Below are positions 1 through 64,000 of a stretch of 64,000 bases of DNA, piece after piece. Position 1 is the stretch's first letter; every line of letters starts with the position of its first letter. The translations under genes and the position numbers were made by a program. Source of the stretch: Chloroflexota bacterium (lineage in GTDB: Bacteria > Chloroflexota > Dehalococcoidia > Tepidiformales > Tepidiformaceae). Below the pieces are notes generated by a model. The model made no database searches and was not told where the DNA came from. It saw only the letters and a program-made list of their open reading frames with translations. The DNA lies in contig JAPPBY010000033.1 in NCBI GenBank assembly GCA_026702615.1, positions 62,001 to 126,000 of the forward strand, in the 5' to 3' direction.

Positions 1-1729
1 GGTGCGTGATCTCCAGCGCCGCGCGCACGGCTTCGCCCGCATCCGAACCGCCGTTCTCGGCGTAGTTCGGGTTCTCGGGGTTGACCCACGGGTCGGAGAT
101 GTTGACGCCCTTGTACCAGTTGCCGCCCCAGATGGCGCCGTAGCCATCCGGCGTGTAGGCCACCAGTGCGTTCCAGTCCGGCATCGTCGAGACGGCGTTG
201 TTGCCGGCGATGAAGAAGTGCCAGTCCTTGGTGCCCGTGGGGCCGTTCGCGGAGGCGATGTAGGTCGCCAGCTCAAGCGGGTTGTAGTTCACCGGCACCC
301 CGAGGGAGTCCTCGAAGCTTTGCCCGATGAACTGCACGTGGCTGTAGTCCGTACTCCAGGCCGCAACCGTCGTGTCGAGCTCGGGGAAGATCTCGGGGCC
401 GTTGTTGGCCTCCCACAGCTGGCGTGCGCCCTGCGGGTCGTACACCTGGTACTCGCGGATCTCCTCCTGGGAGAGCGCGTACTTGGGGAACGCCGTCGGG
501 CTGACCGGCGCGCTGCGGCGGCCCTCGCCGCTGAGAATGACGTCGATGTAGCCGTCCCAGTCCATCGCCATCGAAAGGGCCTTCGAGAGCTCCGGATACG
601 GCGTCCACTTGGCCGCGGCCAGCTGGATCATGATCCCGCCGTCGTCGATCGCCGGCCCCGTCATGACGTTGACGTTCGGCTGGTCCGCCCACGCGTCGGC
701 GTCGATCTTGGAGACCGCGCCCCAGTAGTCGGAGTCACCGGCGAGGAAGCGAGCCTGCCGCGCCGCGCCGTCGGTAATGATGACGTGCTCCATAGCGTCG
801 ATATAGGGGAAGTCGGCGTTGAAGCGCGTCCCCGCAATCTGCTCCGGGTGCTCGTAGTAGTTCGGATTCCGCTTCAGCGTCATCCGCGTCTCGGACACGT
901 CGTCGAACATGTACGGGCCGGAACCTGCGTTGATGCCGGAGACCTGGCCCAGATCGCCCGACTCCTCAGCCGCGAGCCGCTCCGGTGAGACGACCACAAG
1001 CGAGGCTGCGGCGAACGCGCGTGTGTTCGACGCAAACGCCTTGTTCTGGTTGATCCGGAGTGTCAGGTCGTCCGGTGTGTCGAACGTCGCGCCCTGGCTC
1101 TCGTCCATGAACGAGAAGAACAGCTCGTTCACGTTCGAGCCACGGTTGGCGCGGGAGTCCGGGTACCGCCTCAGGCTGATGTACCAGTCCTCCGAGTTCA
1201 CCTCGCGTCCGCCCTCCGCTTCCGGGTTGAAGCGAACGCCTTCCCGCAGGTTGAAGACCAGCGTCTCCGGATCGATCTGCTCCCAGCTCTGAGCCGCATC
1301 CGGGTAGAACTCGTCGTTGGTGATCGAGAACGCCATCAGCTGGCTGTACGTGGTCGACATCCCCTGCGGGAACGTGATCGTGATCGAGGGGTCGAAGCCC
1401 GTCGGGTAGGCCACCAGGCTGTAGTTGAAGGTGCCGCCGTACCGTGAGCGGTCCTCGGCGGCCGCGGCCTGCTCCTCGGGCTCGTCCGCGGCATCGGTTT
1501 CCGCGGCCTGCGAATCCTCGGCAGGCTCATCGTCGTCGGCCGCTGCCGCTGCGGCCTGGGTGGCCGCAGCCTGCGTGGCCGCCGGAGCGGCTGCGTCGTC
1601 GTCATCGTCGTCATCGCCGCAACCCGCGAGGATCGCGGCAGAGCCAGCCGCGAGCGTCGCTCCACCCGCCAGCACACGCCTCCGCGAGACGCGCCTGCGC
1701 CAGTACTTGCCCCAGTAGCTTTCTTTCAC
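1..1729 (-). CDS. ABC transporter family-5 solute-binding lipoprotein, copy 1 (C-terminus off window)
   Basis: Extracytoplasmic solute-binding protein of the peptide/nickel (SBP_bac_5) type, presumed to deliver an oligopeptide-like ligand to an ABC permease that is not in the window. About 576 codons are visible; the last ~80 residues lie beyond the left edge, judged from its 659-residue paralogue next door. The GTG start (1727-1729) has a perfect AGGAGG 6 bases upstream. The N-terminus has an Arg-rich Tat-like stretch (SRRRVLAGG), a lipobox ending LAGC, then a poly-Asp run and an Ala/Gln/Thr-rich linker, followed by the binding domain. It is nearly identical to the downstream-numbered copy in the signal and linker and diverges most in the mid and C-terminal part, as expected of duplicated binding proteins that separated in ligand range. 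Family assignment is firm; ligand unknown. Confidence 0.85.
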   Translation of the reverse strand, partial: MKESYWGKYWRRRVSRRRVLAGGATLAAGSAAILAGCGDDDDDDDAAAPAATQAAATQAAAAAADDDEPAEDSQAAETDAADEPEEQAAAAEDRSRYGGTFNYSLVAYPTGFDPSITITFPQGMSTTYSQLMAFSITNDEFYPDAAQSWEQIDPETLVFNLREGVRFNPEAEGGREVNSEDWYISLRRYPDSRANRGSNVNELFFSFMDESQGATFDTPDDLTLRINQNKAFASNTRAFAAASLVVVSPERLAAEESGDLGQVSGINAGSGPYMFDDVSETRMTLKRNPNYYEHPEQIAGTRFNADFPYIDAMEHVIITDGAARQARFLAGDSDYWGAVSKIDADAWADQPNVNVMTGPAIDDGGIMIQLAAAKWTPYPELSKALSMAMDWDGYIDVILSGEGRRSAPVSPTAFPKYALSQEEIREYQVYDPQGARQLWEANNGPEIFPELDTTVAAWSTDYSHVQFIGQSFEDSLGVPVNYNPLELATYIASANGPTGTKDWHFFIAGNNAVSTMPDWNALVAYTPDGYGAIWGGNWYKGVNISDPWVNPENPNYAENGGSDAGEAVRAALEITH

Positions 1730-54338: not shown

Positions 54339-54815
54339 CTACTCGCCCGTCCCGAGTTGCTGGGCGAGGTATTGCTCGGTCCCAAGCTGGCCGATCGCCT
54401 CGATCTGCGTCTCCAGCCAGTCGATGTGGGTCTCTTCGTCCCGAACCATCTCCTCGAGCCGGGAGCGCGTGCCGTAGTCGTCGACCTCGACGCAGAGGTT
54501 AACACCCTCGGTGAGGGCTTCGATGGCAGCCTGTTCGCTCTCAAGGTCGAGCTCGAGGTTCTCGAGAACGGTCTCTCCAACCTTGACGACGTCAATGCGC
54601 TGGAGATTGGGCAGACCTTCAAGGTAGAGGATGTGCTTGACGAGCTCCTCGATGTCACGCATCTCCCCCATGCTGATGGCGCGAAGCCGATCGGCGAGGT
54701 GGTCGTAGCCCCAGTTCCGGACGATCTCGGACTGCAGGAAGTACTGGTTGACGGCGGTTACTTCGATGGTGAGCAGGCGGTTGAGGGTATCGACAACCCC
54801 TGGTTTCGCTCTCAT
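54339..54815 (-). CDS. bfr: Bacterioferritin with altered ferroxidase site
   Basis: A 158-residue heme-binding ferritin, the normal length, that stores iron. Numbering matches E. coli Bfr: E18, E51, E94, E127 and H130 of the dinuclear iron site are present, and M52, the heme ligand, is kept. Position 54, normally His, is Asp (EMRD). The inner-surface residues 46, 47 and 50 are Ala, Ile and Gly in place of His, Glu and Asp. Its ATG overlaps the bfd stop (ATGA). Third gene of the iron-binding-protein/bfd/bfr operon. Confidence 0.93.
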   Translation of the reverse strand: MRAKPGVVDTLNRLLTIEVTAVNQYFLQSEIVRNWGYDHLADRLRAISMGEMRDIEELVKHILYLEGLPNLQRIDVVKVGETVLENLELDLESEQAAIEALTEGVNLCVEVDDYGTRSRLEEMVRDEETHIDWLETQIEAIGQLGTEQYLAQQLGTGE

Positions 54816-55081
54816 TCGGTTCCCTCTGGGGCAGTTGCCCCCGCGCAGGCTACCTGTTGCCCGGAGCGTTGGCACACTGCAGCGCTTGCCCCCTGAGGCG
54901 AGCCGGCAGGGCCGGGAGCAATCTCCACCAGGAGATCCTCGAGCACTGACAGGCAGGTGCCACAGCTGTCGTCGTCGCCGAGGGAAAAGCGGGTGACCAG
55001 CTCGTCGAAGTCGCAAGGACCGGCTTCGGCCGCTTGTCGCACTTCGGCCACCGTCACGGCGTGGCAGATACACAGGTACAC
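54812..55081 (-). CDS. bfd: Bacterioferritin-associated ferredoxin
   Basis: A 89-residue [2Fe-2S] protein that reduces bacterioferritin to release iron. CICHAVT (C4, C6) and SCGTC (C40, C43) give the CxC-x33-CxxC arrangement of Bfd. The C-terminal ~35 residues beyond the domain are an Ala/Gly/Ser-rich tail with two more Cys, not usual in Bfd. The start is GTG. It overlaps bfr by 4 bases and lies 24 bases after the iron-binding-protein gene. Confidence 0.88.
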   Translation of the reverse strand: MYLCICHAVTVAEVRQAAEAGPCDFDELVTRFSLGDDDSCGTCLSVLEDLLVEIAPGPAGSPQGASAAVCQRSGQQVACAGATAPEGTE

Positions 55082-55105
55082 CGACTCCCTCCCTTTCTGC
55101 TCTTC

Positions 55106-56143
55106 CTACGGCTCGAAGCCGGCCTCGCGGATGAGCTCGATGGTGCGTTCGAGGCTGGTGCCGAGACGATCGAACTCGCCGAGGTCGATCGGTCCGGGGG
55201 ACTGGGCGACTCCTTCAAGCTCGACGCCCGTGGCGAGCGGGTACTCGAAGTTGGCCTTGCCGAAATACTCCTGCGCGACCTTGCTGGTGAGGAAGCGGAT
55301 GAGCTTCTGAGCCACATCCTTGTCGCCGGAGGCGGTAGCGCCGATGGCGGTAGCGATGGTCACGCCGCCGGGATCGCCATCCCTGAAGCGGTGGTTCTCG
55401 CTGGGGGTAGAGGGGTCCTCCACCTGGATGCGCAGGTTGTAGTAATGGTTGACCAGCCCCAGCTCGATCTCGCCGCGGGCCACGGCCTGCACGATGGAGA
55501 CGTTGTTCGGGTAGACGGGCGCACCCCCATCGTGGAGAGCCTTGAGCCATGCGAAGGCAACGTCGTCTCCATCAGACAGACGGAAGAGGGTGAAGAAGTC
55601 CTGGAACGACCCGTTGGTGGGGGCGAGGGCGACGCGACCGAGCCACTTCTCTTCGGTGAGCTCGTGGATGGAGGTGGGGAGGTCGGCCGGGTCGAACAGC
55701 TCCTTGTTGTAGACGAGCACGCGCTGGCGCCCGGTGAGCGCAACCCAGTAGCCGGAGGGGCTGGAGGGAGCGAGCTCGAGGACATCGTCGTCGAGCTCGG
55801 CCAGCAGGTCGCGCTCGGCGAGGAAGCCGATGGGGCCGGGGCTGCGCGAGATGAACACGTCGGCGGGCGTCCGGTCGCCTTCCTCCTGGAGGAGGAGGGC
55901 GAGGTCGGTGGAGCCGCCATACCGCACACGGACGTCGATCCCCGTGTCCTCGGCGAACCGCTCGAGGAGGGGGCCGATGAGGTTCTGGCTACGCCCCGCG
56001 TAGACCGTGATCGTCTCATCGTCATCGGAGCAGCCCATGGCCGCTACGGCGCCAAAGACGAGGGCGAGCATGAGGGCGAGGGCGATCCAGGTCCGCCTGA
56101 TGGGTGCAGTGCGCCGCGAGGCTTGAGTGGTTGACACAGTCAC
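55106..56143 (-). CDS. Ferric-iron-binding lipoprotein, FbpA/FutA-like
   Basis: A 345-residue iron(III) substrate-binding protein. Signal peptide with lipobox MGC near residue 38; then TITVYAGRSQNLIGPLLERF, typical of FbpA/FutA. The double-Tyr iron ligand is in LVNHYYNLR near residue 230; IGFLAERDLLAEL and VYPNNVSIVQAVARGEIELG also match. It starts at GTG with a weak ribosome site. No permease or ATPase is adjacent. Leads the iron operon with bfd and bfr; a DtxR-like box sits upstream. Confidence 0.88.
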   Translation of the reverse strand: MTVSTTQASRRTAPIRRTWIALALMLALVFGAVAAMGCSDDDETITVYAGRSQNLIGPLLERFAEDTGIDVRVRYGGSTDLALLLQEEGDRTPADVFISRSPGPIGFLAERDLLAELDDDVLELAPSSPSGYWVALTGRQRVLVYNKELFDPADLPTSIHELTEEKWLGRVALAPTNGSFQDFFTLFRLSDGDDVAFAWLKALHDGGAPVYPNNVSIVQAVARGEIELGLVNHYYNLRIQVEDPSTPSENHRFRDGDPGGVTIATAIGATASGDKDVAQKLIRFLTSKVAQEYFGKANFEYPLATGVELEGVAQSPGPIDLGEFDRLGTSLERTIELIREAGFEP

Positions 56144-58596: not shown

Positions 58597-58824
58597 TCAA
58601 TCGCCTTCGGCAGCTGCAAGCGTTGCGATGTTGGCCACCAACCATGCGGATGCGGCGCATACCTGCAGCACATCCCCAGGGGAGTTGATCCCGTAGGCCA
58701 GCATGCTGCTAATCCAGCAAACGCTGGCAACCGTCTGTCCGAGCCACTTGAGGCTCCACGCCCTGGCCAGCCGGCTTCGCACCGCTCCAGACACGGCAGC
58801 CTCGCCTGCGTTTCCACTCAACAT
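58597..58824 (-). CDS. Small two-helix membrane protein
   Basis: A 75-residue protein with two transmembrane helices, about residues 28-46 (LGQTVASVCWISSMLAYG) and 51-69 (LQVCAASAWLVANIATLAA), and a basic first 25 residues. No family recognised. The ATG overlaps the stop of the FAD-oxidoreductase gene by seven bases, so it is the last gene of that operon. It may anchor or assist the oxidoreductase; inferred only from coupling. The bases 58468-58596 between it and the amidohydrolase hold nothing clear. Confidence 0.5.
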   Translation of the reverse strand: MLSGNAGEAAVSGAVRSRLARAWSLKWLGQTVASVCWISSMLAYGINSPGDVLQVCAASAWLVANIATLAAAEGD

Positions 58825-59948
58825 GCGCACTCTATCCCGCAACAGGAAAGGTCATCGAGATACATGCCCCAATCGCGGTAGGCCTCCAGGTCTTCCGCGG
58901 GCAGCCCCAGCGAGGTCGCGACGGCCTTGGCGACAACGGCGAATCGCTGGCGGAACTTGAAAATGAAGCAGAAGACGTGGTCGTTGTGGCGCACTGCGGG
59001 GCCGCAGAGAAATATCCCCGGCACGATTGTTGATTCATCGTCTTCGCTGAGAAACAGCGAGCCATCGTCGCGTTGTTCAAACAAGTACGAGATCATCCTG
59101 TGACTGCCCTCGAAGCCGCCCGCCAAGAGCGGCGGCACGGAGGTTTGAAACCGTTGCCCGTCCTGAGACGTGACCTCATAGGTGCCGTCCACACAAGTCA
59201 CCGATTCGACAGGTGTGTTCGGAAACAGCTCCACCTGCCTCATGAACTGCCGTTCACGCATCCGCTCGAGCGTGAACGGGGAAAGCGTAATGCTGGGGTC
59301 GGAGCTCTCCGCCTCCCACGGGCAGTCCATGTCGAACAATCGCACTCGTTTGTCGCGATAAGCCAGGTGGAAGGCCGCATCGACACCACTCTCGTAGCCA
59401 CCGACCACGATGAAGTCGTCACCGTCAAGCTCGTCATAGCTGGGGATGGTCGCGGTGTGGCGACACAGCTCGCTCCCGGCAAACCCAGTCAGGCGTGGGT
59501 ACTGGAACTCGCCCGCAGCCCAGATGACGTTCCTGGCCTGCAGGGTCTCGCGGGCCGTCTCTACGAGAAAGTTGTCTCCATCCCTCGTGATCCCCATCAC
59601 GTCGGTGTACTCGCGTACGGGTAGCTCAAAGAATCGTGCGACTGTACGCAAATGCGTCGCGTACTCTGCACCTGTCGGGTGCTCGACGCCCAGACTGAAC
59701 GCAGGTGACGTTCCAATTGCGATCGAGTTCAAATCGAGCATGCCGATCGAATTGGTGGCGTACGAGGGCGTGATGAAGCGAGTTTCGGCCGGCCACGAGG
59801 CGAACGACGCCCCCACCGTTTGACGCTCGAGAACGACGAAGTTCTCGATGCCGGCGTGCCTGAGCGCCACCGAGACGCCCACGCCTGCGGCGCCGCCACC
59901 GACGACTACTACGTCATAGAGGACTTCACTGCTCCTGGTGCCGGTCAT
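58818..59948 (-). CDS. FAD/NAD(P)-dependent oxidoreductase with Cys-rich C-terminus
   Basis: A 376-residue flavoprotein of the two-dinucleotide-binding-domain type (FMO/thioredoxin-reductase-like, CzcO/YpdA group). VVVGGGAAGVG near residues 14-24 binds FAD; FIVVGGYESGVD near 178 binds NAD(P). The FATGGF-like element reads ATIPSYDELDG. The last eight residues, CCGIECAC, form a Cys cluster suggesting a thiol redox centre or metal binding. The ATG follows AGGAGG. It follows the zinc-protein fusion gene by 254 bases on the same strand. I see nothing definite in that 59949-60202 gap. Confidence 0.8.
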   Translation of the reverse strand: MTGTRSSEVLYDVVVVGGGAAGVGVSVALRHAGIENFVVLERQTVGASFASWPAETRFITPSYATNSIGMLDLNSIAIGTSPAFSLGVEHPTGAEYATHLRTVARFFELPVREYTDVMGITRDGDNFLVETARETLQARNVIWAAGEFQYPRLTGFAGSELCRHTATIPSYDELDGDDFIVVGGYESGVDAAFHLAYRDKRVRLFDMDCPWEAESSDPSITLSPFTLERMRERQFMRQVELFPNTPVESVTCVDGTYEVTSQDGQRFQTSVPPLLAGGFEGSHRMISYLFEQRDDGSLFLSEDDESTIVPGIFLCGPAVRHNDHVFCFIFKFRQRFAVVAKAVATSLGLPAEDLEAYRDWGMYLDDLSCCGIECAC

Positions 59949-60202: not shown

Positions 60203-62605
60203 TTACTTCGCGATGCCGTTGGCAATGGCGCGGAGGAACTCAACGTACGTTGGATACTCCTCAGCCAGGGCCCCGGAAGGAATCGTGCGGACGGTCGTGC
60301 CGGTGTCGCGGGCGATCTGCTCGATCACGCGCGCACTGAACTGCGGTTCGCTGAAGATGTAGGGGATCCCCAGTTCCGTGATGCTCTCCACCAGCTCGGT
60401 GATTGCCGATGCGCTCGGCTCCTCTTCCGGACCTTCCACCACGAAGCCCAGGATCGTCAGCCCGTAGCGGTCCGCGAAGTAGCCGTAGGCATCGTGGAAC
60501 GTGACCAGGTAGCGGCGCTCCTCGGGGAGTCCGGCGAGTTGCTCGCGGATCTCCTCGTCGAGCTCCCGCAGCTCCGCGATGTAGGCGTCTGCCCGCTCGC
60601 GGTAGTAGTCGGCTCCATCCGGATCGAGGCGTGACAGCTCGTCCCGAATTGCCTCGACGGCTTCGATCGTGAGGTCGATGTCCATCCAGAAGTGCGGGTC
60701 GAACTCGCCATGGGCGTGCCCATGGTGGCCGTGCTCGTCTTCGTGCTCGTCCTCGTGCTCGTCCTCGTGCTCGTCTTCGTGCTCGTGCTCGTCCTCGTGC
60801 TCGTCTTCGTGCTCGTGCTCGTCTTCGTGCTCGTGCTCGTCCTCGTGCTCGTCCTCGTCATGGTCGTCGTGCGCATCGTCGATGACGCCCACGAATGCGA
60901 GGCTGGACGGAGCACCGCCGACCTCCCACTCCTCCTCGATCTCCATGTGCTCGAGATGGACCCCGAGGACATGACCGCTATTCGGGTCGGCGACGTAGAG
61001 CCACTCGCCGACGACGATCATCGAGGGCGAGGGACGTCCGAACACCATCTCAAACGGGTCGACCAACTGCATGGTCCCGGTCAGTTCGCCGTCGTGAGAG
61101 TCGAACGCGCGCAGAACACCGTCAGCGGCGAGCATGTAGAAGGTCTCGCCGTCGCTCGAGAACGCAGCCGCAGCGCTCGGCCCGGGGAACACCTCGCGCA
61201 TTTCGCCGTTGACCACGTCGACCAACCAGACGCCGCCCAGGGCACAGCACTGGCCGTCGGGGAAGAGGGTCGCGGGGGCGAAGAAGTTGTCGCTGTGCTG
61301 ATGTCCGTAGTACTGGCCGAGCGCGAACTCTCCCTCTTCACCCACCTCCGGTGGATAGGGGATGACTTCGTGCTCGTAGTGCCCGTCGTGGGCGTGTACG
61401 AAGAGCACACCTTCCCAGCAACCGAAGACGGCGCCGTGTGCGTTGTTCGCCTCGCCGTGCAGGTTTGTGCAGGAGCGGTTGGCTGCGTCGTACACGACCT
61501 CGTTGTCGAACGTGCGCACCTCAACACCGAGTGGCAGGCATTCCCATGTCCCCGGGATGAACTCGGTGCAGGCCGGGTTGTTGGAGCTGAGGATGACGTG
61601 GTCATCGGCAATGACGAGCGCCGCGCCGTGCTGGATTCCAGCCTCAAGCACGATCGGCTCGTAGTCACCGGCCGAACTGGCCAGATCTTGCTCGTTTATC
61701 AGGATTACGTGGCCGTTGGTGTCGGCGAAGATCGTGGTCCAGCCGTGGCTGTTGACGTAGTGGACCGGCCACTCCTCGACGATCTCAAGCGCGTGCCGTG
61801 AGACGGGCTTGCGGACCAGGTCGTAGTGATCGCCGTGTGGGACGTAGAACACGCCGCCGTCGAAAACGTGGATGCGGTCGTCGCCGGCATCTGGCCCGCG
61901 AGCGACAACGATGCCGTAACGGTGCGTGGGGCTTGCGTAGACGGTCGCGTTGGGCCCTGCGATGTCGAAGGCTCCGCTGTCGACGTCATCGGTCGAGAGG
62001 TCGATGACGGAGAGGTGAGCTGCTAGGCCATCGGCAACGAGCAGGCGGCCAATGAGGGTCGGGCCGTGGTCGTCCTCGTGCATCCCCTCGTCTTCATGCT
62101 CGTGCTCGTCTTCATGCTCGTGCTCATCTTCGTGGTCGTGCTCGTCTTCGTGCTCGTCTTCGTGCTCGTCTTCGTGCTCGTGCTCGTCTTCGTGCTCGTC
62201 GTGGTCATCGTGGTCATCGTGGTCATCGTGCGCCAGCGCCTCCGGGAACGGCCGCAGCTCCATGTCGTGCGTTAGTTCCAGCACGGAGCCCCTGGCGCTT
62301 TCCGCAAGCTGCTCCTCGACCACGCTTAGTGAGCTGCCCACGATTACGAGCAGGTCCGCCTCGGTGGTCTTGCTGATGTCACTCGGTGTGACGTGGAACG
62401 TGTGCACGTCCGCGTTGAGGGGAACAATGCTCGTGGTCGACACGCGGTCGCCGCCCACCTGCTTCACCAGGTCCTCGACGATCGTCGTGGATGTCACGAC
62501 TGAGAGCGTGGTTGTGGTGTCTTCCGCCCTCTCCTCTTCGCCACCGCAGGCGATCACCAGCATGGCAACGGCGATGACCGCTGCGGTTCCAAGTCGACTG
62601 AGCAC
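60203..62605 (-). CDS. Nested fusion: ZnuA/AztC-type zinc-binding lipoprotein with an AztD-like beta-propeller inserted
   Basis: An 800-residue lipoprotein (GTG start at 62605; lipobox VIAC, Cys20). Residues ~30-125 are the N-lobe of a zinc/manganese binding protein (VVTSTTIVEDLVKQVGGDRV; His in NADVHTFHVTPSD). Residues 126-180 are a His/Glu/Asp tract. Residues ~181-575 read as an AztD-type metallochaperone propeller (YVPHGDHYD, PVHYVNSHG, CTNLHGEANN, FGCWEGVLFV, YVADPNSGHVLG). Residues ~577-632 are a second His/Glu/Asp tract ending in HGHHGHAHG. Residues ~635-800 are the C-lobe (DPHFWMD, VTFHDAYGYFADRYGL). The propeller thus sits in the loop where normal ZnuA has a His-rich stretch. The usual C-terminal Asp ligand is not obvious (IPSGAL). 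Zinc delivery within one chain is the inferred role. Confidence 0.88.
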   Translation of the reverse strand: MLSRLGTAAVIAVAMLVIACGGEEERAEDTTTTLSVVTSTTIVEDLVKQVGGDRVSTTSIVPLNADVHTFHVTPSDISKTTEADLLVIVGSSLSVVEEQLAESARGSVLELTHDMELRPFPEALAHDDHDDHDDHDEHEDEHEHEDEHEDEHEDEHDHEDEHEHEDEHEHEDEGMHEDDHGPTLIGRLLVADGLAAHLSVIDLSTDDVDSGAFDIAGPNATVYASPTHRYGIVVARGPDAGDDRIHVFDGGVFYVPHGDHYDLVRKPVSRHALEIVEEWPVHYVNSHGWTTIFADTNGHVILINEQDLASSAGDYEPIVLEAGIQHGAALVIADDHVILSSNNPACTEFIPGTWECLPLGVEVRTFDNEVVYDAANRSCTNLHGEANNAHGAVFGCWEGVLFVHAHDGHYEHEVIPYPPEVGEEGEFALGQYYGHQHSDNFFAPATLFPDGQCCALGGVWLVDVVNGEMREVFPGPSAAAAFSSDGETFYMLAADGVLRAFDSHDGELTGTMQLVDPFEMVFGRPSPSMIVVGEWLYVADPNSGHVLGVHLEHMEIEEEWEVGGAPSSLAFVGVIDDAHDDHDEDEHEDEHEHEDEHEHEDEHEDEHEHEDEHEDEHEDEHEDEHGHHGHAHGEFDPHFWMDIDLTIEAVEAIRDELSRLDPDGADYYRERADAYIAELRELDEEIREQLAGLPEERRYLVTFHDAYGYFADRYGLTILGFVVEGPEEEPSASAITELVESITELGIPYIFSEPQFSARVIEQIARDTGTTVRTIPSGALAEEYPTYVEFLRAIANGIAK
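60710..60877 (-). repeat. Second His/Glu/Asp-rich coding tract of the zinc protein
   Basis: In-frame coding repeat, mainly of GAC/GAG/CAC codons for D-E-H-E units, after the propeller domain (residues ~577-632). Ends in HGHHGHAHG, a likely strong zinc-chelating patch, directly before the DPHFWMD metal-site strand. Confidence 0.9.
62066..62230 (-). repeat. First His/Glu/Asp-rich coding tract of the zinc protein
   Basis: In-frame repeat of HD, HE and HED units (residues ~126-180), starting with four H-D-D units. It lies between the N-lobe and the propeller. The two tracts share hexamer units, making slippage or recombination between them possible; a recombination event would excise the propeller exactly. 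Confidence 0.9.
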
Positions 62606-62632
62606 TACGTTCGCTCTCCTTCGTGTCGGGGC

Positions 62633-62673
62633 ATACTGAGACGCAGTATCAGTACCGATTCGGTGAGCGTCAA
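62633..62673 (-). promoter_or_regulatory. Promoter with palindromic operator for the zinc-protein gene
   Basis: Minus-strand TTGACG (62668-62673), a 17-base spacer and GATACT (62645-62650), followed by AAGGAGA and the GTG start. A perfect 6-bp inverted repeat ATACTG-AGACG-CAGTAT (62633-62649) covers the -10 and the start site, the position expected of a metal-responsive repressor (Zur-, MntR- or Fur-like). Its sequence does not match a consensus I know. Confidence 0.65.
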
Positions 62674-62726
62674 ACCGCATGCGGCGCGCAGTCAGAGCCA
62701 TCGGCTCCGATAGCCTCGGCGGGGAG

Positions 62727-63413
62727 CTAGGGGAGGGGGCGGTCGGCGAGGATGCGACCGTCGCGAATCTCGACGAGACGGTCGGCGCGCTGCGCCATGC
62801 GGTCGTCGTGCGTGACCATGATGCAGGCCTTGTCGCGCGAGTGAACCTCGCTCAGGAGGGCATCGACGACGCGGCTGCCGAGCTCGAAATTGAGGCTGGC
62901 GGTGGGCTCGTCGACGAGGAGGAGGGAGGGGTCGCGCATCAGCGCGCGGGCGATCGCGACACGCTGGCGTTCGCCGCCGGAGAGGCTCGTGGCGACCTGG
63001 TTGCGGACGGGGGTGAGGTCGAGCTGGTCGAGGAGTTCGTCGGCGCGACGGCGGAGGGCGGAACGGTCGGCGCCCCCAAACTGGCCGACCACGAGCAGGT
63101 TCTCGCGGGCGGTGAGGAAGGGGACCATGTTGCTGCCCTGGAAGACGAAGCCGACGCGGTCGCGCCGGTAGCGCGTGCGGGCTCGGGTGCCGTAGTTCGT
63201 TATGTCGTCTCCGCCGACGCGAATGGCGCCGTCGGTCGGGGTGAGGAGGGCTCCGGCAAGGGCGAGCAGGGTGGTCTTGCCTGAGCCGGACGGCCCCTCA
63301 AGCGCCACCACCTCACCGCGATCGACCTCGAGCGTGACCTTGCGGACGGCATCGACCCGCCGGGCGCCAGACCCGAAGGATTTGGAGACATCGCGCAGTT
63401 CGAGGATGGCCAC
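62727..63413 (-). CDS. LolD/MacB-type ABC ATPase
   Basis: A 228-residue ATPase of the lipoprotein-export/MacB/FtsE group. Walker A GPSGSGKTT near 38-46, Q-loop VFQGSNMVPFL near 95, signature TSLSGGERQR near 142, Walker B SLLLVDEPTASL near 160 and switch His VTHDDR near 200. It pairs with the FtsX-like permease 9 bases upstream. It precedes the zinc-protein gene by 121 bases on the same strand, but that gene has its own promoter. It does not resemble AztA/ZnuC-type importers. Confidence 0.88.
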   Translation of the reverse strand: MAILELRDVSKSFGSGARRVDAVRKVTLEVDRGEVVALEGPSGSGKTTLLALAGALLTPTDGAIRVGGDDITNYGTRARTRYRRDRVGFVFQGSNMVPFLTARENLLVVGQFGGADRSALRRRADELLDQLDLTPVRNQVATSLSGGERQRVAIARALMRDPSLLLVDEPTASLNFELGSRVVDALLSEVHSRDKACIMVTHDDRMAQRADRLVEIRDGRILADRPLP

Positions 63414-63422
63414 GGGAATGCC

Positions 63423-64000
63423 CTACTGCTGCTGCATCGCGATGATGGGGTCGACGGAGGCGACCTGTCGGGCGGAGAGCAGCGAGCCCACGACGCCGGC
63501 GATGACCACGGAGATGGAGCTCGTCGCCATGGCGTTCGCGGTGAAGTCGATGGGGATGGTGTCGGAGGAGAGCACGGTGGCTTCGGTGAGGAGCGCGAGC
63601 CCGACGGCGACAACGGCGCCGACGACGCAGACGATGAGCACCTGCAGCAGCCCCTGCACGACGAGGTAGCTTCCGGGCGCGCCTATCGCCTTGAGGATCC
63701 CGAGGAGGGACACCTTCTGGAGGGTGATGACGTAGAAGAAGACGCCGATCACCATCGCGCCGATGAGCAGCCCCATGTAGCGGAGGGCGTCGACGGTGGA
63801 CTGTTGGGCCTGAACGCCCTCGATGTTGTTGAAGCCATCCTGCTTGGTGACGATGCGCCAACCCTCGCCGCGGACTCCGTCGAGGTCACGCCCCTGAATC
63901 AGGACCAGGCTGGCGGCGGGCTGCTGGTCGGCATCGCCGATGAAGACGAGGTCCCTCCACGAGGCGAGGTCGACGAACATGGCGGGCTGGAAGAAGAAAT
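63423..64000 (-). CDS. FtsX/MacB-type ABC permease (N-terminus off window)
   Basis: C-terminal ~190 residues of an FtsX-like permease; the open frame continues past the right edge. Three helices of the family's terminal domain are seen: ALRYMGLLIGAMVIGVFFYV, LVVQGLLQVLIVCVVGAVVA and SVVIAGVVGSLLSA, with VSLLGILKAIGAPGSYLV between them and the usual ending RQVASVDPIIAMQ. Before them is a periplasmic segment (DVASW-like). Works with the adjacent LolD-type ATPase in mechanotransmission or lipoprotein/peptide export. Confidence 0.85.
   Translation of the reverse strand, partial: FFFQPAMFVDLASWRDLVFIGDADQQPAASLVLIQGRDLDGVRGEGWRIVTKQDGFNNIEGVQAQQSTVDALRYMGLLIGAMVIGVFFYVITLQKVSLLGILKAIGAPGSYLVVQGLLQVLIVCVVGAVVAVGLALLTEATVLSSDTIPIDFTANAMATSSISVVIAGVVGSLLSARQVASVDPIIAMQQQ

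Follow-up and report, generated by a model that had tools for sequence, protein, structure and literature searches.

An AztD-type zinc metallochaperone nested in the D-loop of an AztC-type lipoprotein, a recurrent architecture in Chloroflexota

Within the window analysed here (a stretch of 64,000 nucleotides of a Chloroflexota genome, denoted G000), a single uninterrupted frame on the minus strand, running from a GTG at 62605 to a stop at 60203, encodes a protein of 800 amino acids in which an AztD-type beta-propeller is nested between the two lobes of an AztC-type zinc-binding protein. This architecture is recurrent in Chloroflexota and by no means unique to the genome at hand. We consider it likely that the product is one surface or periplasmic lipoprotein in which the AztD part, held in the AztC D-loop, gathers zinc and loads the AztC cleft of its own molecule, which would in turn supply an AztB-type permease.

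Architecture, insertion point and zinc sites

The features of the gene and of its surroundings are the following (coordinates in the window).

63423..63998, minus strand: FtsX-type permease gene, extending past the window edge; a conserved neighbour
62727..63413, minus strand: upstream ABC ATPase gene of the FtsX/MacB type, not AztA; the neighbour is conserved in the genomes G003 and G004
62637..62651, minus strand: Fur-family-like 7-1-7 palindrome, TGATACTGCGTCTCA, with a putative regulatory role
62614..62620, minus strand: ribosome-binding site AGGAGAG, 8 bases 5' of the GTG
60203..62605, minus strand: whole gene, nested AztC[AztD] lipoprotein, 800 residues, GTG start (frame and profile matches)
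62546..62605, minus strand: signal peptide, residues 1-20, with the lipobox VIAC and Cys20
62240..62512, minus strand: AztC N-lobe, residues 32-122, with the zinc ligand His68
62051..62239, minus strand: first His/Asp/Glu tract, residues 123-185, 17 His, disordered
60887..62050, minus strand: AztD beta-propeller, residues 186-573 (profile, structure matches and model)
Ligands of the AztD part: site 1, His282, His326 and His383; site 2, His257, His260 and Asp262; cysteine pair Cys379 and Cys396
60707..60886, minus strand: second His/Asp/Glu tract, residues 574-633, 18 His, disordered
60206..60706, minus strand: AztC C-lobe, residues 634-800, with the ligands His638 (in DPHFW) and His704 (in TFHDAYGYF)
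58818..59948, minus strand: downstream FAD/NAD(P) oxidoreductase gene (Pyr_redox_3), conserved in G002, G003 and G004

With Cys20 in its lipobox, the 800-residue protein is a predicted lipoprotein, and N-termini of the lipobox type are also found in nested relatives. An in-frame ATG at 62701 would extend the protein to 832 residues, but without a lipoprotein start. At the DNA level, both tracts consist of repeats of 12, 18 and 30 bp.

An earlier note on this DNA had read N-lobe, tract, propeller, tract and C-lobe in one frame, with boundaries that are right to within a few residues, and profile searches bear out this reading. Both Pfam ZnuA (PF01297, E 1.8e-62) and NCBIfam AztC (NF040870, E 5.8e-61) match the protein in two stretches, and NCBIfam AztD (NF038015) matches it once, at residues 190-572, over positions 1-354 of the 356 in the profile (E 9.8e-32); by sequence, residues 176-573 align with AztD proteins of solved structure. 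AlphaFold2, run on the whole protein with an input alignment of nested and un-nested relatives, produced a model with a pLDDT of about 90 in both domains and below 50 in both tracts, the disordered stretches being 123-180 and 578-632. When this model was compared with solved structures using VIA-align, residues 183-578 matched the AztD of Paracoccus denitrificans (6ck1) with a Z score of 44.5 (2.6 Å, 364 residues aligned), and the outer pieces 32-122 and 634-800, taken jointly (model 32..800), were found to build one AztC/ZnuA fold, with the AztC loop-deletion mutant 5kzj as the best match (Z 31.1, 2.0 Å, 259 residues). Both folds agree with the expectation of the earlier note, namely, a ZnuA fold formed by the outer pieces together and an AztD propeller at 181-575. 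The placement of the domains relative to each other is not fixed in the models, with a pTM of 0.57 for the window protein as well as for a homologue with short tracts (L089, CATOSD010000001.1).

The point of insertion can be defined with the P. versutus AztC as the ruler, the residue numbering of which is identical to that of the solved P. denitrificans AztC. In AztC, the D-loop (117-133) lies just ahead of the DPHAW motif, and this is the position that the first tract, the AztD part and the second tract occupy in the window protein; the flexible His-rich loop at which the earlier note had placed the insert is, by this alignment, the D-loop itself. In P. denitrificans, AztC cannot take up zinc from AztD without the D-loop and its three His, which have been modelled inside the AztD pore (PMC7463823, PMC6689063). 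Site 2 of AztD is built by the N- and C-terminal strands of the protein together with the blade-2 hairpin and has been docked in the AztC cleft, about 10 Å from the final site (PMC6689063). It follows from the location of the insert in the D-loop that the terminal strands of the donor, which contribute to site 2, are attached at the edge of the receiver's cleft.

The residues that bind zinc in the separate proteins are, with one exception, retained. The ligands His61, His138 and His204 of AztC correspond to His68, His638 and His704 of the window protein and are conserved without exception in the 41 nested proteins that were compared. The exception is the fourth ligand, Asp279 of AztC/TroA, which is Gly in the window protein and Gly or Gln in 38 of the 41; given that, of 33 un-nested relatives, only 6 have Asp at this position, so that the residue is mostly lost there too, the loss was not caused by nesting. 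Among 42 nested inserts, site 1 of AztD is kept in 39-41, site 2 in 41-42 and the disulphide cysteines in all. In some homologues, the linking tracts are as short as 15-18 residues, with only 1-3 His.

Relation to known zinc-binding proteins and chaperones

We assign the nested protein to neither of the two equivalog families, AztC and AztD, because both curated cut-offs and several of the defining features of these families are missed, although it very probably works like both together. The score for AztC, collected in two pieces, is 206.4 bits against a cut-off of 350, and that for AztD is 110.1 bits against 400, the insert belonging to a divergent AztD lineage that is 24% identical to the P. 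versutus AztD. By definition, AztD is a separate secreted protein with a signal peptide of its own, whereas here it lies between the AztC lobes in one frame; AztC has a short flexible D-loop with three His, the place of which is here taken by tract, AztD and tract; and the operon of AztC with aztA and aztB is absent from the window, though present in 16 nested relatives. Thus, current family models do not name the nested form at their cut-offs.

The closest comparison is with the AztABCD system of P. denitrificans, which has in common with the nested proteins both folds, the three His of AztC and both zinc sites of AztD, and the aztA and aztB genes of which have counterparts following the nested gene in many relatives. 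In P. denitrificans, however, AztC and AztD are separate proteins that dissociate after transfer, whereas the AztD of the window lies inside the D-loop and has no signal peptide of its own, and Asp279 is Gly. The streptococcal AdcA resembles the window protein in that a zinc-binding protein and a zinc chaperone are combined in one lipoprotein, but the chaperone, ZinT, has a different fold and is C-terminal, joined by an 11-residue linker (PMC7858048), rather than nested in the receiving loop. No ZinT domain is found in the window protein with Pfam, and its ZnuA-like part alone accounts for its score of 136 bits against the AdcA model (NF033605), the cut-off of which is 700. The anchored-repeat ABC substrate-binding proteins (TIGR03772), one of which, DIP0438 of C. 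diphtheriae, is zinc/Zur-regulated (PMC6711530), carry an insertion at the same place, with some 210 extra residues between the lobes (the model comprises 486 residues with the C-lobe from 311, compared to 277 residues with the C-lobe from 99 for AztC), but this insert falls far short of AztD in length; against this model, the window protein reaches 197.5 bits where the cut-off is 350.45, and its best-matching stretch is the C-lobe. In the ZnuA/ZinT pair of Gram-negative bacteria, too, the chaperone is proposed to contact the receiver through the latter's His-rich loop, but the two are separate proteins, and zinc transfer between them has not been demonstrated (PMC6689063). Hence a chaperone fused to a zinc-binding protein (AdcA) is already known, as is a protein with extra residues inserted in this loop (TIGR03772), whereas the part of the literature that the search reached contains no description of an AztC-AztD fusion, in line with the earlier note, the author of which knew of none.

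Recurrence and history of the insert

The repetitive tracts raise the question whether an assembler could have joined pieces of two genes, all the more so as the canonical aztC of the same genome is interrupted within its own tract, where contigs end. This explanation can be given practically no credence. A second species of the same genus (G004, a genome of 9 contigs) encodes a nested protein that is 94% identical and is flanked on both sides by the same genes, those for the FtsX permease and ATPase and for the oxidoreductase. Nested genes are also found in single-contig chromosomes (G336, OX638324.1, OX638292.1) and in large contigs, and, altogether, the architecture is represented by more than 40 further proteins from at least eight families, some in other families at 53% and 47% identity. 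On these grounds, an assembly chimera, which the earlier note had named as a possible refutation, is rejected as the source of the architecture.

The domain order proposed in the earlier note was thus found well beyond the window. A domain scan of all fetched loci yielded 42 distinct nested proteins, invariably in the order N-lobe, AztD, C-lobe and in one frame in 41 cases, and three more came in addition; a single scan of contigs rested on two short peptide patterns (DPHFW and an acidic tract), and its coverage outside Chloroflexota is uneven. In the class sample, AztD is present in 38 of 393 genomes, and the nested form is the commoner one, with 30 of the 44 AztD loci lying in frames of at least 763 residues. 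Matches in plasmid records are to standalone AztD, with aztD annotated as a gene of its own where annotation exists. One nested gene appears to be broken, with an N-lobe frame about 1 kb from a frame for AztD and the C-lobe (L095, CATOSK010000006.1, 5713-9307).

The histories of the insert and of its host differ. In the AztD tree, the nested inserts cluster with two standalone groups in a single lineage that excludes the AztDs of proteobacteria and Deinococcota, and the nested and solo states are separated by 3 changes. In the tree of the host lobes, nested and un-nested AztCs are mixed, and well-supported branches force at least 10 changes. The AU test rejects trees in which the inserts are forced to follow the host lobes (p-AU 1.3e-4, 8.9e-5 and 4.2e-5), in which the hosts of one insert group are forced together (2.4e-47) and in which all nested hosts form one clade (8.8e-8); the groups were named after the trees had been seen, which weakens these p-values but hardly the differences in likelihood (80 to 981 units). 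Among long-read genomes only, the lobes of L107 and L074 are 75% identical and their AztDs 37%, compared to 62% and 75%, respectively, for L089 and L091, so that chimeras of short-read assembly do not explain the conflict. Given the strong conflict between the insert tree and the host-lobe tree, we conclude, from these comparisons of sequences, that AztD entered the loop of AztC, or was swapped into it, several times.

At the window itself, the insert shares 86-88% identity with standalone AztDs from a different family, whereas the lobes group with those of their own genus and are 33-46% identical to nested proteins outside it. The same locus with the same neighbours is found without AztD in G003, where the tract contains a scaffold gap of 10 N, and an AztD of the kind inserted in the window gene was found neither elsewhere in this genome nor in six other members of the genus. 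Furthermore, two AztC paralogues of G007 (L049 on contig C7 and L050 on contig C6) have a near-identical tract and C-lobe but diverged N-lobes, with tracts that differ by in-frame indels, a pattern that points to recombination at the tract. Taken together, the standalone-like insert, the G003 locus and the further genomes of the genus in which no such AztD was found, and the G007 paralogues suggest that AztD was probably a recent acquisition of the window copy, a second and orphan AztC, brought about by recombination of repeats in the His tracts. The closest relatives of the window insert are the standalone AztDs of the genus g75 (L069 in G366; G277), which has two copies per genome, adjacent in tandem in G366.

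Could all nested proteins nevertheless descend from a single ancient fusion, such that ordinary AztCs are the products of recurrent AztD loss and no repeated gain took place? The 3 changes required in the AztD tree and the ease with which loss by recombination between the two tracts can be imagined speak for such a history, and losses of AztD elsewhere are likely in any case; but the 10 or more changes among the host lobes, the mutual rejection of the two histories in the AU tests, the insert of the window gene, so much closer to foreign standalone AztDs than its lobes are to foreign nested proteins, and the discordance that persists among long-read genomes make it quite improbable. On balance, we lean, if only somewhat, towards the view that AztD is a moving cassette in Chloroflexota, and that repeats of His, Asp and Glu codons at its flanks and in the D-loop would allow in-frame entry, exit and swapping, repeatedly and independently, each entry making a self-loading zinc receptor. 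Recurrent insertion combined with conflicting trees of insert and host provides a clear case of a domain of about 400 residues entering a functional loop via repeat tracts.

Partners, zinc transfer and putative regulation

No aztAB genes adjoin the nested gene in the window. Elsewhere in the genome, a canonical aztC is followed by ATPase and permease genes (AztAB), and a standalone aztD is present as well. In 16 relatives (14 + 2), a nested gene is the first in an operon with aztA and aztB, the frames of which mostly overlap, and in several others an aztB homologue lies beside the nested gene in convergent orientation. These operons are the strongest evidence, albeit indirect, that nested proteins serve zinc import. 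The C-lobe of the window gene (60206-60706) is 94% identical in DNA to the C-lobe of canonical aztC (G000:C37; G004:C4:826890-827540), which suggests that the two proteins supply the same permease; the N-lobes share no more than 62-71% identity at the protein level, and the combination of a near-identical C-lobe with diverged N-lobes points to gene conversion with an edge in the tract. The canonical aztC of G000 is split inside the His tract over contigs C27 (157008-157478) and C37 (1-582), between a gene for a Fur-family regulator and aztA/aztB, and tracts of this kind will break the gene in many short-read genomes.

In the proposed mechanism, the AztD part, together with the low-affinity His/Asp/Glu tracts, would collect zinc; site 2 of AztD, located where the tether is attached, would pass it on, within the molecule, to the AztC cleft; and the loaded AztC lobes would deliver it to an AztB-type permease, in the case of the window protein presumably to the AztAB encoded elsewhere in the genome. 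Transfer in cis is supported by the linkers of 15-18 residues that hold AztD near the cleft in some homologues. Points against the mechanism are the lack of aztAB beside the window copy and the replacement of Asp279 by Gly, which is seen in most un-nested relatives too, and the retention of a standalone AztD makes transfer in trans possible. The weak point is geometry, given that the models do not place the domains and that the D-loop, the plug of the AztD pore, is itself opened by the insert, so that the docking proposed for P. denitrificans cannot be transferred unchanged.

The same uncertainty of placement, the interrupted D-loop and the abundance of His, Asp and Glu in the tracts would be compatible with another function, a store or buffer that raises the local concentration of zinc, from which the AztC lobes load from solution without any direct hand-over. 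We regard this as rather unlikely, considering that site 1 and site 2, the latter docked in the cleft, are both kept with hardly an exception, that the insert occupies the very loop on which transfer depends rather than a terminus, and that the tracts of some homologues are so short and so poor in His. Alternatively, the window copy might not be a transporter-binding protein at all but a scavenger acting in trans, for example, by feeding the canonical AztC, an idea that draws on the orphan location of the gene and on the canonical aztC-aztA-aztB set and standalone aztD of the genome. This appears very improbable in view of the near-identity of its C-lobe to that of the canonical AztC, with which it probably has the permease contacts in common, and of the 16 relatives in which a nested gene provides the binding protein of the aztAB operon. 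Loading in cis followed by delivery to an AztB-type permease thus remains the best explanation.

Direct transfer of metal from protein to protein is known mostly from docking models of short-lived complexes, and the AztC-AztD complex has itself only been modelled since it dissociates after transfer (PMC6689063). A donor tied to its receiver at the contact loop, in some species by linkers of 15-18 residues, could be crystallised or imaged as a complex, and transfer could be measured as a first-order reaction.

A palindrome of the 7-1-7 type is common to the upstream regions of the window gene, the canonical aztC and the standalone aztD of G000, the last of these in the perfect form TTGATACTAAGTATCAA. 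With up to 2 mismatches, the pattern has 10 matches among those listed for this genome, in about 6 places, compared to 0 for the reversed pattern. The obvious reading is that the palindrome would be the operator of a Fur-family regulator, with TGATACTnnGTATCA as a candidate target of the regulator encoded beside aztC on contig C27. More copies are located at G000:C17:7330-7361, C30:57822 and C5:101672 and at G004:C6:220297 and C7:107219; one set precedes a pair of ABC exporter genes, and a small metal regulon is possible. Not far from the zinc gene, on the minus strand of the window at 54339-56143, genes for a ferritin-like protein, a BFD-type [2Fe-2S] protein and an extracellular solute-binding protein adjoin one another and likely represent an iron storage and uptake group.
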